In this document: one piece after another, positions 10,998 through 17,420 of the stretch
Position numbering within the stretch: the stretch's first letter is position 1
Layout of the letters: each line of letters begins with the position of its first letter
NCBI RefSeq assembly: GCF_001654865.1
Contig: NZ_LXEO01000057.1
Coordinates: forward strand, 1-34,201
Source of the DNA: Buttiauxella noackiae ATCC 51607
Lineage (GTDB): Bacteria > Pseudomonadota > Gammaproteobacteria > Enterobacterales > Enterobacteriaceae
Direction of reading: 5' to 3'
Length of the DNA: 34,201 bases
Program-made: the position numbers and the translations under genes
The notes under the pieces: generated by a model
What the model was told of the DNA's origin: nothing
What the model saw: only the letters and a program-made list of their open reading frames with translations
Databases searched by the model: none

Positions 10998-12473
10998 ATG
11001 GCTAATTATTTCAACACTTTGAACCTGCGTCAGCAGTTGGCGCAACTGGGTAAATGTCGTTTCATGGGGCGAGCAGAATTCGCCGATGAAGCAAGCTACC
11101 TCAAAGGCAAAAAAGTCGTCATCGTCGGCTGTGGCGCACAGGGCCTGAATCAGGGTCTCAACATGCGCGACTCCGGTCTGGATGTTGCTTATGCTCTGCG
11201 CGCAGAAGCTATCGCTGAGAAACGTGCTTCATGGCGTAAAGCGACCGAAAACGGTTTTAAAGTTGGCACCTACGAAGAACTGATCCCACAGGCTGACCTG
11301 GTTGTTAACCTGACGCCAGACAAGCAGCACTCCGCAGTAGTTAAAGCTGTACAGCCAATGATGAAAGATGGCGCTGCGCTGGGTTATTCCCACGGTTTCA
11401 ACGTGGTTGAAGTGGGTGAGCAAATTCGTAAAGACATCACCGTTGTGATGGTTGCGCCAAAATGTCCGGGTACTGAAGTTCGTGAAGAATACAAACGTGG
11501 TTTCGGCGTGCCGACGCTGATTGCGGTTCACCCGGAAAACGATCCGAAAGGCGAAGGCATGGCGATCGCTAAAGCCTGGGCTGCGGCGACTGGCGGTCAC
11601 CGTGCAGGTGTTCTGGAATCTTCCTTCGTGGCAGAAGTGAAATCTGACCTGATGGGCGAGCAAACTATCCTGTGCGGTATGCTGCAGGCGGGTTCTCTGC
11701 TGTGCTTCGATAAGCTGGTGGAAGAAGGCACTGATCCGGCATATGCAGAAAAACTGATTCAGTTCGGCTGGGAAACCATCACCGAAGCGCTGAAACAAGG
11801 CGGCATTACACTGATGATGGACCGTTTGTCCAACCCGGCAAAAATCCGTGCTTATGCGTTATCTGAGCAACTGAAAACCATCATGGCTCCGTTGTTCCAG
11901 AAACACATGGACGACATCATCTCCGGTGAGTTCTCTTCTGGCATGATGGCTGACTGGGCAAATGACGATAAAAAACTGCTGACCTGGCGTGAAGAAACCG
12001 GCAAAACTGCGTTCGAAACCGCTGCACAGTTTGACGGCAAAATTTCTGAGCAGGAATACTTTGATAAAGGCGTTCTGATGATCGCTATGGTTAAAGCGGG
12101 CGTTGAGCTGGCATTCGAAACCATGGTTGATGCGGGTATCATTGAAGAGTCTGCTTACTACGAATCATTGCACGAGCTGCCGCTGATTGCGAACACCATC
12201 GCTCGTAAGCGCCTGTACGAAATGAACGTGGTTATCTCTGACACCGCTGAATATGGCAACTATCTGTTCTCTTACGCAGCAGTTCCATTGCTGAAAGAGT
12301 TCATGACAACTCTGCAAGCGGGTGATTTGGGCAAAGAAATTCCGGCGGGTGCGGTTGATAACGCGCAACTGCGTGATGTTAACGAAGCGATTCGTAATCA
12401 TGAAATCGAAACTGTTGGTAAGAAACTGCGCGGCTACATGAAAGATATGAAGCGTATCGCTGTAGCGGGTTAA
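10998..12473 (+). CDS. ilvC: Ketol-acid reductoisomerase, class II
   Basis: A 491-residue NADPH-dependent, Mg-dependent enzyme converting acetolactate and acetohydroxybutyrate to dihydroxy acids, the step between IlvGM and IlvD. The dinucleotide-binding motif [14 protein letters not shown] is near residues 35-50. The long form with duplicated C-terminal knotted domain (class II) is typical of enterics; E. coli IlvC is also 491 residues. It is transcribed alone, divergently from ilvY, and induced by its own substrates through IlvY. The start ATG follows CGGAG with an 11-base gap. Confidence 0.98.
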
Positions 12474-12480
12474 TCGATTT

Positions 12481-12513
12481 TGTCGGATGGCGCTAGCGCT
12501 TATCCGACCTACA
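12481..12513 (+). repeat. REP-like palindrome after ilvC
   Basis: The stretch around GTCGGAT....ATCCGAC followed by CTACA has the form of an enterobacterial repetitive extragenic palindrome. The stem is GTCGGAT/ATCCGAC with an inner AGCGCT-type segment. It sits 7 bases after the ilvC stop and before the terminator, a common place for REP elements. It may protect the ilvC mRNA 3' end. Confidence 0.65.
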
Positions 12514-12521
12514 AAACAATA

Positions 12522-12556
12522 AAAGCCCGGTGCGTTTAGTCACCGGGCTTTCTTTT
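12522..12556. terminator. Bidirectional terminator between ilvC and ppiC
   Basis: AAGCCCGGTG and CACCGGGCTT form a 10-bp stem (12523-12532 with 12541-12550), followed by a T-rich tail on the plus strand and preceded by A-rich sequence for the minus strand. It serves ilvC and convergent ppiC. Confidence 0.92.
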
Positions 12557-12837
12557 TAGTTTCTGTAGAGAACTTTAATCACATGGTAGCCAAACTGCGT
12601 GTGCAGTGGGCCAACGGGCTCAAGCAGTGGGCAAGAGAACACCACTTTATCGAACGCCGGAACCATCTGACCCTGACGGAATTCACCTAAGTGACCACCT
12701 TTTTTGCCTGATGGGCAAGTAGAATGCTTTTTAGCCAGTTTTTCGAAGTCGCCGCCATTTTTCAGCTGTTCGAGAATTTCCTGAGCCAGTTTTTCTTCCT
12801 TAACAAGGATATGCAATGCTGCCGCGGTTTTTGCCAT
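12556..12837 (-). CDS. ppiC: Peptidyl-prolyl cis-trans isomerase C (parvulin)
   Basis: A 93-residue single-domain parvulin, the same size as E. coli PpiC/Par10. It is cytoplasmic, with no signal peptide. Family motifs are visible: [10 protein letters not shown] at the start, [20 protein letters not shown] in the middle and [12 protein letters not shown] at the end. The start at 12837 (MAKTAAAL) is chosen because it restores the E. coli N-terminus and has AAGG upstream; an in-frame ATG 16 codons earlier gives an unlikely extension. In E. coli the next gene to the right is rep (with decayed yifNO ORFs between), but here an accessory cassette intervenes. Confidence 0.96.
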
Positions 12838-12877
12838 GATAGTGCCTTGATTGGGTGGATATAAATCTGGCGGCAAT

Positions 12878-12905
12878 AATAGCATGCGTCATGTGATAGC
12901 CAAAT
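12878..12905 (-). promoter_or_regulatory. Probable ppiC promoter
   Basis: On the minus strand TTGGCT (12905-12900) is followed by a 16-bp spacer and TATTAT (12883-12878). This is a good sigma-70 match and lies 41 bases upstream of the ppiC start. Confidence 0.55.
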
Positions 12906-12985
12906 TTGGTTTACTTGCCTTTTACTTTGCAGCAATCCCTTCTTTACCACTCATTGATACGTCAGGTATATACACTTTGGCTTAG

Positions 12986-13074
12986 CAGGACAGATGTCCC
13001 GTCTGATTGAAGGAATCGGGAGGTAGGCTACTTTTCTAAAGCCCTTCTCCTTATTACGCAGGACGCCCGTCCTG
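12986..13074. promoter_or_regulatory. Twin palindromes, candidate operators of the cassette regulator
   Basis: CAGGACAGATGTCCCG at 12986-13001 and CAGGACGCCCGTCCTG at 13059-13074 share the core GGAC, four bases, GTCC in the same 16-bp frame. The second is a perfect 7-bp inverted repeat. Their centres are 73 bp apart, close to seven helical turns. The 16-bp dyad size suits a Crp/Fnr-type dimer. A weak promoter (TTGAAG 13007-13012, 16 bp, TACTTT 13029-13034) lies between them. They sit immediately upstream of the Crp-like gene at 13086. Binding is inferred, not shown. Confidence 0.5.
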
Positions 13075-13085
13075 TCTTTCCCGTA

Positions 13086-13802
13086 ATGGAGATCGCTATC
13101 ATAAACATAATGAAAGAGACTGAATTTTCAGATAGCTGGCTATCAGGTCTGACAAGGGTTGTACGTGATCCAGTGCTGTATGAACTACTAAAAAATTGCC
13201 CGCTGGAAATTATGCAGCGCTGGGTTTTTGAAGAAGTACCTCGTGGAGCAATGCTTTGCCGCCAAGGGGATAAATGCCAGCGTTTTTCATTAATTGTTGC
13301 TGGTGAAGTTGACGTCTTTTTTGAAGCTGAGGATGGCCGCCGTTATCGACAGGCTCGTTATAACAAAGGTGACATGTTAGGTGAGTTGGAAATATTTGAG
13401 TCACGGCACTACATCTGCTCAGTTTCTGCTGTGACTAATACGCAAATATTGAGCTTATCGCAGACACATTTTTGCCGTTGGTTAGCACTGGATAATTATT
13501 TTAATCAGCGGATGCTGAGATTTTTCAGCCAGCAATATTACCAGCTATCCAGAAAGGCAAGCAGCGACAATCTTTATTCACTTCATCAGCGGGTTTGTCA
13601 GGCGCTCTGGCAGAGGTTTCAACAGCAGCAGACGACAGAAATTTTTATTGATAAACAAAACATCAGCCAGGAATTTGCAGCCACAACGCGCAGTATTAAT
13701 CGCATCTTACATGACCTGAAATCGCTTCGGATTATTGATACCGAAGGAGAAAGAGTTTTATTGCTGGCTCCTGAGCAACTCAAGCAGGAGGCAAATATCT
13801 AA
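13086..13802 (+). CDS. Crp/Fnr-family transcriptional regulator
   Basis: A 238-residue protein with an N-terminal cyclic-nucleotide-binding-type beta-barrel (about residues 40-130; GELEIFESR resembles the Crp GELGLFEE), a dimerisation helix (about 135-160) and a C-terminal winged HTH (about 165-230). The residues that bind the cAMP phosphate in Crp (Arg82-Ser83) appear as Ile110-Cys111, so cAMP is an unlikely ligand. In the recognition helix TTRSINRIL the Crp Glu181 position is Arg202 and the Arg180 position is Thr201, while Arg206 matches Crp Arg185, which predicts a different DNA site. Cysteines are at 38, 58, 64, 111, 130 and 171. There is no clear ribosome site for ATG 13086; ATG 13110 is an alternative. 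It is the first gene of the cassette with the phosphorylase and pnuC, and by analogy with YeiL next to rihB/nupX it probably controls them. No symbol is assigned. Confidence 0.85.
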   Translation: MEIAIINIMKETEFSDSWLSGLTRVVRDPVLYELLKNCPLEIMQRWVFEEVPRGAMLCRQGDKCQRFSLIVAGEVDVFFEAEDGRRYRQARYNKGDMLGELEIFESRHYICSVSAVTNTQILSLSQTHFCRWLALDNYFNQRMLRFFSQQYYQLSRKASSDNLYSLHQRVCQALWQRFQQQQTTEIFIDKQNISQEFAATTRSINRILHDLKSLRIIDTEGERVLLLAPEQLKQEANI

Positions 13803-13826
13803 ATAAAGGGAAAGATAAGGAGAGGC

Positions 13827-14579
13827 ATGATGTCGCTTCAGCCACATATTCGGCTTGAAAATAATATGACGAATGCGAAGTACGCATTGCTACCGGGTGA
13901 CCCGGATCGGGTCGATCGTATAGCCTGCTTTCTGGATAACCCTGAGAAATTGGGTCAAAACCGTGAGTTTCGAGCTGTACGCGGCTGGTTTCAGGGTATT
14001 GAAATTCTTGTGCTATCCACGGGTATTGGTGGCCCGTCAACGGCGATAGCCATTGAAGAGCTGTGCCAGATTGGTGTGAAAACGATGATACGTATTGGCA
14101 GCTGCGGTGCGTTGCAGGATGACCTGGCACTGGGGAATATCGTTATCGCTCACGGTGCGGTTGCGGATGATGGCACCAGCAGAACCTATGCGCCAGCTTG
14201 TTATCCGGCCTGCGCCGATCCGCTGTTTACCGCAACGTTAGTCCAGCAGGCAAAACAGATGGGTGTCCCCGCCGTTTATGGACTGGTGCGTAGTCATGAC
14301 AGCTTTTATACCGAGCGAGAAGCGCAACTGGATGCTGAATGGTCAGCGCGGGGGATTCTTGGTGCGGATATGGAGAGTGCCGCACTGATGGTTGTTGGAG
14401 CATTACGCGGACTGCGCACGGCGTCACTGTTGAACGTGGTTGTCGAGCATAACGGTTGCCTGGGTAGCAGTATCAACGACTATGTGCAGCAGGAAGCTTT
14501 GTGTCTGGAGGGTGAAGAGCGACAAATCCTGCTGGCACTACGTGCAATCTATGCTGATAGTCAGCAAGGAGAAAAATAA
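13827..14579 (+). CDS. Nucleoside phosphorylase, PNP/Udp family
   Basis: A 250-residue phosphorylase-1 family enzyme. The N-terminal half resembles uridine phosphorylase: PGDPDRV (residues 23-29, phosphate site), STGIGGPSTAIAIEEL (64-79) and RIGSCGA (Arg89, Ser92). The C-terminal half is nearer purine nucleoside phosphorylase: SHDSFYTERE, then GILGADMESA with ribose-binding Glu183. The Udp pyrimidine-specificity loop (Gln/Arg in an insertion after SDTFY) is missing. At the place of the PNP catalytic Asp (SDH) is Glu207 (VEH). Substrate cannot be assigned; a role in splitting nicotinamide riboside or another nucleoside imported by the adjacent PnuC is the contextual guess. AAGGAG lies at 13817-13822; ATG 13830 is an equally good start. 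The stop overlaps pnuC by one base. Confidence 0.85.
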   Translation: MMSLQPHIRLENNMTNAKYALLPGDPDRVDRIACFLDNPEKLGQNREFRAVRGWFQGIEILVLSTGIGGPSTAIAIEELCQIGVKTMIRIGSCGALQDDLALGNIVIAHGAVADDGTSRTYAPACYPACADPLFTATLVQQAKQMGVPAVYGLVRSHDSFYTEREAQLDAEWSARGILGADMESAALMVVGALRGLRTASLLNVVVEHNGCLGSSINDYVQQEALCLEGEERQILLALRAIYADSQQGEK

Positions 14580-15307
14580 TGGATTTTTTCAGTATTAACA
14601 ATGTGATGGTCACGATTCCTTTGGGCGAAGGTGGTTATGCACTGTCGTGGATTGAAGCGGTTGGTACGCTGTTTGGCTTGTTGTGTATCTGGTTTGCCAG
14701 CAAGGAAAAAATCATCAACTACTTGTTTGGGTTGATTAACGTCACGCTGTTTGCGGCTATCTTCTTCCAAATCCAGCTTTATGCCAGCTTGCTGCTGCAG
14801 GTGTTCTTTTTTGCAGCCAACATCTATGGATGGTACGCCTGGAGTCGGCAGACCGAAAATAACGAGGCCGCGCTGAAGGTTCGTTGGTTATCTCGTCAGC
14901 AAACCGTCGTACTGGGTGCGATTTGTATTGTGGCAATTATGCTGATGACGTTATTTATCGACCCGGTGTTTGCGGCGCTAACCCATATGATGATTTCCAT
15001 CTTGCAGGCCGTGGGTATATCCGTAGCGATGCCAGAACTGCAACCTGATGCGATGCCGTTATGGGACTCAACCATGCTGGTGCTTTCGATAGTGGCAATG
15101 GCGCTCATGACCCGTAAATATGTGGAAAACTGGCTGCTGTGGGTCGTGATTGACGTGATAAGCGTGGTTATCTATGCCATTCAGGGTGTTTACGCGATGT
15201 CGCTTGAGTATGTTCTGTTGACGGCAATTGCGATTATGGGCTCATGTAGTTGGGTTGCCCGTGCAAAACGTAATGGCTATACACCTCTGGCTTCTGCCGC
15301 TTCCTGA
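14579..15307 (+). CDS. pnuC: PnuC-type nicotinamide riboside transporter
   Basis: A 242-residue integral membrane protein very similar to E. coli PnuC (about 239 aa): [51 protein letters not shown] and MPELQPDA are nearly verbatim. The family has seven membrane helices and a SWEET-like fold and moves nicotinamide riboside by facilitated diffusion, trapped inside by phosphorylation. The substrate motif W-x-x-W-x-x-x-(N/D) is present as [10 protein letters not shown], with Asp where I recall E. coli having Asn. The ATG overlaps the phosphorylase stop (TAATG), with AAGGAG just upstream, so the two are translationally coupled. E. coli pnuC is next to nadA and under NadR; this location is different, so it may be a second copy. 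Confidence 0.9.
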
Positions 15308-15360
15308 TTTTTCGGGCAGCTCGATTGGGCTGCCCGCTGCATCATCCGACCCACTTCTGC

Positions 15361-15366
15361 TACAAT
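15361..15366 (+). promoter_or_regulatory. Probable -10 element of rep
   Basis: TACAAT is a 5/6 match to the sigma-70 -10 hexamer, 32 bases before the rep ATG and after the pnuC stop. No convincing -35 is seen at 16-18 bp. It suggests that rep keeps its own promoter downstream of the inserted cassette. Confidence 0.4.
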
Positions 15367-15398
15367 CCTTCCCCCGTTCGAAGATTGAGCAATACATC

Positions 15399-17420
15399 AT
15401 GCGTTTAAACCCTGGTCAACAACAAGCCGTCGAATTTGTCACAGGACCTTGCCTGGTTCTGGCTGGTGCAGGCTCGGGCAAAACGCGTGTCATTACCAAT
15501 AAAATGGCCTATTTGATCCGCGAGTGCGGTTATCAGGCTAAGCATATCGCGGCGGTTACCTTTACCAATAAAGCGGCGCGTGAGATGAAAGAACGTGTGG
15601 CACAAACGCTGGGCCGCAAAGAATCGCGCGGTTTGCTGATCTCCACTTTCCACACACTGGGGCTTGAGATCATCAAACGTGAGTTTGCCGCGTTGGGGAT
15701 GAAATCGAATTTCTCCTTGTTTGATGACACCGACCAGACAGCGTTGCTCAAAGAGCTGACTGAAGGTTTGCTCGAAGATGATAAGACATTATTGCAGCAG
15801 TTGATCTCGACGATCTCAAACTGGAAAAACGATCTGATGACGCCGTCGCAGGCGGCTGCCCAGGCAAAAGGCGAGCGCGATCGAATCTTTGCTCATTGTT
15901 ACGGACTTTACGATACCCACCTCAAATCCTGCAACGTGCTGGATTTTGACGATCTGATTTTGCTGCCGACGCTGCTTTTGCAGCGTAATGAAGAAGTGCG
16001 CGAGCGTTGGCAAAATCGCATCCGCTATTTGCTGGTGGATGAATACCAGGACACCAACACCAGCCAATATGAACTGGTGAAGCTGCTGGTGGGAGCGCGG
16101 GCGCGCTTTACCGTGGTGGGTGATGACGATCAGTCTATTTACTCCTGGCGCGGCGCACGGCCGCAAAACCTCGTTTTGCTAAGTCAGGATTTCCCAGAAC
16201 TTCAGGTTATTAAGCTTGAGCAGAACTACCGTTCTTCCGGGCGCATTCTGAAAGCGGCAAACATTTTGATTGCCAATAACCCACACGTTTTTGAAAAACG
16301 CCTTTTTTCTGAGCTGGGTTACGGCGCGGAGCTAAAAGTGGTGACGGCTAACAGTGAAGATCATGAAGCCGAACGCGTTACCGGCGAGCTCATCGCCCAT
16401 CACTTTATTAATAAAACCAACTACAAAGATTACGCCATTTTATATCGCGGCAATCACCAGTCGCGCGTTTTCGAAAAGATGCTGATGCAGAACCGTATTC
16501 CGTATCGTATCTCTGGCGGCACGTCATTCTTCTCACGCCCTGAAATCAAAGATTTACTGGCTTATCTGCGCGTGCTGACTAACCCGGATGATGACAGTGC
16601 ATTCATGCGGATTGTGAATACGCCGAAGCGCGAGATCGGCCCGGTGACCATGCAAAAGCTGGGAACCTGGGCGACGCAGCGCAATAAAGGTTTGTTCGGC
16701 GCAAGTTTTGATATGGGCCTGAGCCAGACGCTGAATGGCCGTGGTCTTGAGTCGTTGCAGCGTTTTACTCACTGGCTACGCGATGTTGCGACGCTGGCCG
16801 AACGCGAACCGATTGCTGCGGTGCGGGATTTGATTCACGGCATCGACTATGAAAGCTGGCTGTATGAAACCTCGCCCAGCCAGAAAGCTGCTGAAATGCG
16901 CATGAAGAACGTCAATCTCCTGTTTAGCTGGATGACGGAAATGCTGGAGGGCTCGGAAATGGAAGAGCCAATGACACTTACACAAGTTGTCACCCGCTTT
17001 ACGCTGCGCGATATGATGGAACGCGGCGAGAGTGATGAAGATACGGACCAGGTCCAATTGATGACCCTTCATGCTTCGAAGGGGCTGGAGTTCCCGTACG
17101 TATTTTTAGTAGGGATGGAAGAGGGCATTTTGCCGCATCAGAGCAGCATTGATGAAGATAATATTGATGAAGAACGCCGTCTGGCTTACGTGGGGGTTAC
17201 TCGGGCACAGAAAGAGCTAACCTTTACGCTTTGCAAAGAGCGACGTCAGTATGGTGAATTGATCCGCCCGGAACCGAGCCGTTTCTTGCTGGAATTGCCA
17301 CAAGATGATTTGCAGTGGGAGACGGAACGCAAAGTCGTTTCCGCTGAAGAGCGAATGACAAAAGGGCAGAGTAATGTTGCCAACATCCGTGAAATGCTGG
17401 CAAAAGCGCGTAAAAGTTGA
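15399..17420 (+). CDS. rep: ATP-dependent DNA helicase Rep
   Basis: A 673-residue superfamily 1A 3'-5' helicase that clears proteins such as RNA polymerase ahead of the replication fork and works with DnaB. Walker A is AGAGSGKT (Lys28), motif Ia is [12 protein letters not shown], Walker [11 protein letters not shown], motif [16 protein letters not shown], motif [19 protein letters not shown] and motif [14 protein letters not shown]. The start at 15399 ([10 protein letters not shown]) restores the E. coli length exactly; in-frame codons upstream run through the pnuC 3' region and are not conserved. It ends one base from the convergent gppA stop, with no hairpin between. Confidence 0.98.

Follow-up and report, generated by a model that had tools for sequence, protein, structure and literature searches.

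A conserved cassette of a Crp-family regulator, a nucleoside phosphorylase and PnuC as a candidate system for nicotinamide riboside phosphorolysis

Introduction

Why should a genome that has NadR and a nadA-linked PnuC carry a second PnuC, joined to a nucleoside phosphorylase and a Crp-like regulator? The question is raised by three genes of Buttiauxella noackiae ATCC 51607 that lie in the window, as we call the whole stretch of DNA that was analyzed (34,201 nucleotides). An earlier note on this DNA had read them as a self-regulated, accessory unit for salvage of nicotinamide riboside (NR), separate from the NadR-controlled kinase route. Excerpts of the relevant papers describe NadR as controlling nadA-pnuC (PMC5343134) and the NadR route as the sole source of NAD in Pasteurellales (PMC6593275), and the excerpt on E. 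coli XapA reports that the enzyme forms NR from nicotinamide as a weak side activity (PMC3923242). XapA and DeoD resemble the proposed cassette enzyme in being nucleoside phosphorylases able to interconvert NR and nicotinamide, as XapA does in that excerpt, which mentions neither linkage to pnuC nor a dedicated regulator, unlike the situation of the cassette enzyme (PMC3923242). A paper on Yersinia that names pnuC and udp was considered as a prior report and set aside, as the excerpt has the two in separate rows of a table (PMC2631605). Among the matches listed in our search of the open-access literature, a scope outside which most subscription papers fall, we found neither the operon, nor a pnuC-linked NR phosphorylase, nor the palindrome described below.

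Results

We confirmed the open reading frames of the three genes, all on the forward strand, and the 1-bp overlap of the last two that had been noted earlier, the TAA of one and the ATG of the next sharing base 14579. The first gene encodes a regulator of the Crp/Fnr superfamily and was called from 13086 to 13802 (238 aa); a start at 13110 (13110..13802) is more likely than the 13086 of the earlier note, because the called 5' end includes a GGAG (13088-13091) and conservation in the alignment begins later. It is followed by a nucleoside phosphorylase gene (PHO, proposed NR phosphorylase; 13827..14579, 250 aa) and by pnuC (14579..15307, 242 aa). The boundaries, both outside the unit, are ppiC on the left (12556..12885, reverse strand) and rep on the right (15399..17420, forward strand); each was assigned by its ORF and a score above its own NCBIfam cut-off. 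As had been claimed, these core genes are near neighbors in E. coli, where a single PemK/MazF-family gene stands between them; in E. coli 1943 that gene (L137:2127-2576) occupies the junction at which the window has the cassette. A known RNA switch was considered and rejected, the only match of an Rfam scan of 12400-15700 being to a leader near ilvC and below threshold (22.5 bits; gathering threshold 55). The promoter scan gave three predicted promoters where 3.5 were expected. The closest named relative found for PHO was from Buttiauxella massiliensis (92% identical).

We searched a sample of the window's family for PHO (E <= 1e-60) and found it in 26 of 392 genomes and 11 of 154 genera. The regulator, PHO and PnuC genes were side by side in all 26 (the window and L068-L092), and for this reason chance clustering was ruled out. 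The same triad was present in G010, which lies outside the family. Of the 26 units, 12 (the window and L068-L078) lie between ppiC and rep, as does that of a Salmonella Senftenberg record, and the other 14 (L079-L092) are elsewhere. In one of the latter, from genus g234 (G665, L079:7656-10085), genes that by eye look like a membrane transporter and an adenosine deaminase adjoin the cassette. Within the window's own genus, two of six sampled genomes had the cassette. STM3912 is given as rep of S. Typhimurium in an excerpt (PMC2874528), from which we infer that strain LT2 would be without the three-gene unit.

In an order-wide sample of 394 genomes, PHO was found in 13 at the same threshold. Since 1e-60 misses diverged PHOs, we repeated the search at 1e-35 in all 58 PnuC genomes of this sample and took a PHO beside pnuC as the criterion. 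The gene order was pnuC-PHO in loci other than those of the window's family and of G010. Of these reordered loci, 21 have both PHO and PnuC intact, and in 19 of them a Crp-like gene followed PHO, the exceptions being L099 and L101; a further locus without this gene (L094, genome G365) has a frame-broken PHO (L094:4195-4924) beside an intact pnuC. The co-occurrence in related genomes that the earlier note proposed to look for is thus seen both in the 26 family-sample genomes and in the 19 pnuC-PHO-regulator loci. Among Gram-positive bacteria, an Enterococcus hirae plasmid has PHO-PnuC, and a plasmid of Limosilactobacillus mucosae (Lactobacillales; L135:4554-7912) has regulator-PHO-PnuC-phosphopentomutase. 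Other transporters were also met with. Genome G382 (L065:7021-9996), which has no PnuC, joins regulator and PHO to a gene of NupC type (405.9 bits, cut-off 442). In a locus from Clostridia, regulator-PHO is followed by a BMP-like ABC gene set, in which the binding protein matched the BMP model far below its cut-off and the remaining genes were named by eye, and in Acetoanaerobium PHO comes after similar BMP-like ABC genes, also read by eye.

The PnuC of the cassette scored above both PnuC cut-offs (NF011926, 423.3 bits against 335; TIGR01528, 203.4 against 42.45). A second pnuC, which the earlier note had proposed to look for near nadA, was found in the window genome behind nadA, and its product is 69% identical to the cassette PnuC. 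The unit is not always accessory: 9 of the 26 cassette genomes in the family sample had no PnuC (E <= 1e-15) other than that of the cassette. When 86 PnuCs were placed in a maximum-likelihood tree, the 34 cassette PnuCs formed one group (100/99) within which the 19 from ppiC-linked loci made a sub-group (100/98); the counts of 34 here and of 33 below include near-duplicates such as L003 and L068. The PnuC of G010, which belongs to another family, nested beside genus g234, and this placement suggests that the cassette may have been transferred between families. Residue 220 was Met in 34/34 cassette PnuCs and Asn in 25/25 canonical ones, and the reordered PnuCs of genomes lacking the NR kinase kept Asn220 in 22/22. 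Asn/Asp192 was discarded as a marker of specificity, because canonical PnuCs also vary there (17 Asn and 8 Asp of 25).

We then compared the distribution of PHO with that of NadR, scored as a TIGR01526 match (E thresholds 1e-15 and 1e-5), in the 58 PnuC genomes of the order sample. NadR was matched in 33, of which 31 were over the cut-off, one (G270) had partial matches and one (G006) had the kinase part only; 25 had no match. PHO adjoined pnuC in 22 of the 25 genomes without a NadR match as compared to 1 of the 33 with one, namely the window genome. By family, the kinase-less genomes with PHO beside pnuC were 10/11 in f25, 3/3 in f12, 5/5 in f21, 3/4 in f6, 1/1 in f11 and 0/1 in f8. The exceptions were G365, with the frame-broken adjacent PHO, G129, with no PHO, and G358, in which the only PnuC is divergent (32% identity). 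At the level of genomes the anticorrelation had a Fisher p of 9e-12, a value that counts related genomes as independent, and at the level of families it was not significant (5/6 versus 1/3, p 0.23), the sample being too small. In the window's own family, the four genomes of genus g234 have the triad without NadR or any other PnuC, and NadR was present in 22 of the 26 family-sample cassette genomes. The window genome has its NadR on another contig, and none of the three cassette proteins is a kinase, as the earlier note had stated. Of that note's inferences, the separation of the unit from the kinase route is the best supported, in that PHO linked to pnuC occurs mostly where the NR kinase is missing, among related genomes of the order sample. 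The unit seems to stand in for the NR kinase. In G006, PnuC (L096:2609-5711) is beside a gene that by eye resembles a TonB-dependent receptor, and the NR kinase part is on another contig.

PHO belongs to the superfamily of PNP_UDP_1 (Pfam; 120.8 bits, cut-off 25.1) and fell below the cut-offs of both uridine phosphorylase TIGR01718 (206.5 against 280.3 bits) and DeoD-type purine nucleoside phosphorylase (125.5 against 230). Our alignment covered 58 PHOs, of which 34 came from cassettes, 22 from reordered loci (that of G382 among them) and 2 from Gram-positive bacteria, together with the window genome's own Udp and DeoD. In Udp numbering, His8, Gly26, Arg30, Arg48, Arg91, Met197 and Glu198, which we take to be phosphate and ribose residues, were present in 58/58, as was a Ser at the Thr94/Ser90 position. 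PHO thus shares with Udp the superfamily and the phosphate/ribose residues, and differs from it on the side of the base. Gln166, Arg168 and Arg223 of Udp, which we assume to bind uracil, were kept in 2/58, lost with the whole Arg168 loop in 58/58, and found in 0/58, respectively. The equivalents of DeoD Asp204 (the acid) and Arg217, presumably its purine-side residues, were also absent in 58/58; in an ungapped alignment a Glu took the place of Asp204 in the window PHO and not in the PHOs of reordered loci. Among seven more distant alignment rows, one of them a duplicate, two had Arg at 168. On chemical grounds NR could do without base-side residues, as the charge on its pyridinium ring would favor the departure of nicotinamide. 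The window genome has a separate Udp besides PHO. The best PDB matches of the window PHO are labeled uridine phosphorylase (4lnh, 4mch and 4mci), and the PHO of L103 (L103:5726-6454) matched the same entries with 405 bits over its length. Because of these matches we place the three structures in the PHO family, and their label is probably a wrong name.

The regulator has cNMP_binding and HTH_Crp_2 domains (Pfam), which place it in the Crp/Fnr superfamily and which it shares with CRP and YeiL; its scores were far below the cut-offs of the CRP (46.6 bits against 266) and YeiL (33.1 against 180) models. The regulator type of the reordered loci was 21-22% identical to the window regulator where BLASTP aligned the two, and one of three representatives of that type gave no BLASTP match to it.

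Upstream of the regulator we identified two palindromes of the form GGAC-N4-GTCC, both putative operators: a distal one, GGACAGATGTCC, at 12988..12999, and a proximal one, GGACGCCCGTCC, at 13061..13072, 73 bp away. These were the only two in the window, where 0.25 were expected and 2 of 100 shuffles reached two. The geometry, with a five-base half-site and a four-base core, is one that we take to be Crp/Fnr-like. Among the 33 cassettes with upstream sequence, the proximal site was exact in 33/33, both sites were exact in 20/33, and both were within one mismatch each in 33/33; the two sites were 73 bp apart in 20 cassettes and 74 bp apart in 13. The palindromes were kept where the neighboring intergenic sequence has diverged. 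Outside the upstream regions a single exact GGAC-N4-GTCC occurred in 441 kb of cassette sources, and single-base shuffles of the upstream regions gave a mean of 0.145 loci with a site.

The reordered loci with a regulator had a site upstream of pnuC in 19/19 (17 exact, 2 with one mismatch), at a distance of ~394 bp in L062 and ~442 bp in L064. The palindrome was found in 0/30 other PnuC loci, that is, in 0/8 without the regulator and in 0/22 of canonical type, the latter having short flanks only and being classed by sequence and clade, with nadA itself seen in the window genome alone. Thus the palindromes track the presence of the regulator across cassettes and reordered loci. One-mismatch sites were also found ~670 bp before the NupC-type gene of G382 and 128 bp before the Limosilactobacillus regulator, and in the scanned stretches of L134, L136, L009 and L010 no site turned up even when one mismatch was allowed, although the upstream sequence of L010 does show a related palindrome. 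A genome-wide regulon was rejected, since GGACANNTGTCC occurred at two other places in the window genome and the reversed-pattern control at one; reading the ORFs by eye, one of the two is intergenic, before a mandelate-racemase-like gene, and one is inside a TldD-like gene. The GGAC-type half-site and this scarcity of further sites set the regulator apart from CRP and YeiL.

Discussion

We consider it probable that the cassette controls its own expression and serves to exploit NR by phosphorolysis, a reading built on what was computed (gene content, linkage, kinase anticorrelation, palindrome conservation and active-site residues), from which the substrate, the direction of the reaction, DNA binding, the inducer and action as repressor or activator are inferred. 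PnuC would pass NR through the inner membrane, and PHO with phosphate would convert it to nicotinamide and ribose-1-phosphate, so that the pentose is kept and nicotinamide is freed for PncA, or NadV where present, and so for NAD. The Crp-family regulator would bind GGAC-N4-GTCC at 12988 and 13061 and govern its own operon; the conserved pair upstream of its gene fits the self-regulation that had been proposed, and a distance of 73-74 bp, which amounts to some seven turns of the helix, would be well matched to cooperative binding or to looping. The unit would be a second NR route in the window genome, and in genomes without an NR kinase it is likely the way in which imported NR is used. As compared to nadA-pnuC/NadR, with which it has the PnuC importer in common, the cassette has a phosphorylase where that route has a kinase, a Crp-like regulator and palindromes of its own, and a PnuC from a separate clade of 34. 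The idea of the earlier note is supported in a stronger form than it was given, in that the unit is conserved and comes with a palindrome.

The chief alternative is that another nucleoside is handled, for example nicotinate riboside, another cationic or modified nucleoside or a deoxynucleoside, and that the specificity of PnuC has shifted. The Asn220Met change common to all cassette PnuCs speaks for this and counts against NR, leaving doubt on its transport, and NadR and a canonical PnuC are present in the window genome in any case. Since PHO occurs with NupC-type (G382) or BMP-like ABC transporters (Clostridia, Acetoanaerobium) in other genomes, the specificity of its family may be broader than NR. 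G129, with PnuC and neither kinase nor PHO, was also counted against NR. However, Asn220 is kept in 22/22 reordered PnuCs of kinase-less genomes, position 192 varies in canonical PnuCs as well, the window cassette PnuC is well above the PnuC cut-off, and in nine family-sample cassette genomes the cassette PnuC is the sole PnuC found. The phosphopentomutase of the Limosilactobacillus locus, a user of ribose-1-phosphate, and NadV, a user of nicotinamide, in G281 and, mildly, in G382, were counted for NR. We regard a different substrate as rather unlikely.

Phosphorylases are reversible, and PHO might work mainly toward NR from nicotinamide and ribose-1-phosphate, with PnuC merely balancing NR across the membrane. 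XapA forms NR in this way according to the excerpt (PMC3923242), but the unit is commonest in genomes that lack the NR kinase, which would act on NR next, and we find such a direction very improbable. Nor do we give much credence to the view that PHO is a common paralogue of uridine or purine phosphorylase, placed beside a spare PnuC by chance. The uridine phosphorylase label of the best PDB matches would suit it, but the linkage recurs in two gene orders with palindromes common to both, the uracil and purine residues are missing and the scores are below the cut-offs, and a separate Udp is present in the window genome; the co-occurrence data already contradict it.

Returning to phosphorolysis of NR, we lean toward a wider statement: that a dedicated NR-phosphorylase family, 4lnh included and labeled uridine or nucleoside phosphorylase, forms with a cognate Crp-family regulator and a GGAC-N4-GTCC operator a further NR route, which would take the place of the NR kinase in genus g234 and across several families of Gammaproteobacteria, move horizontally, also on Gram-positive plasmids, and stand beside NadR in the window genome. 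The PHO/kinase anticorrelation, the paired palindrome and the PHO residue pattern are new here. In PnuC bacteria without the NadR kinase the importer lacks an obvious next step, to which the unit is a concrete and testable answer; it also puts a likely enzyme family in the place of a questionable database annotation, and it pairs a regulator with a palindrome. Should the proposal hold, it bears on the use of NR, a vitamin B3 supplement, by gut and aquatic bacteria, and on which of them make nicotinamide rather than NMN from it.

The occurrence of enzymes that would use the freed nicotinamide was counted against NR for several genomes: the PncA model was matched in 21 of the 31 genomes searched and over its cut-off in six, the window genome being above it. 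NadV was found in 2 of the 31, G382 (PHO, no PnuC) and G281. Three genomes of one genus in family f6 (G365, G253 and G301) have a PncA-like match at a distance of ~6-12 kb from their pnuC locus.
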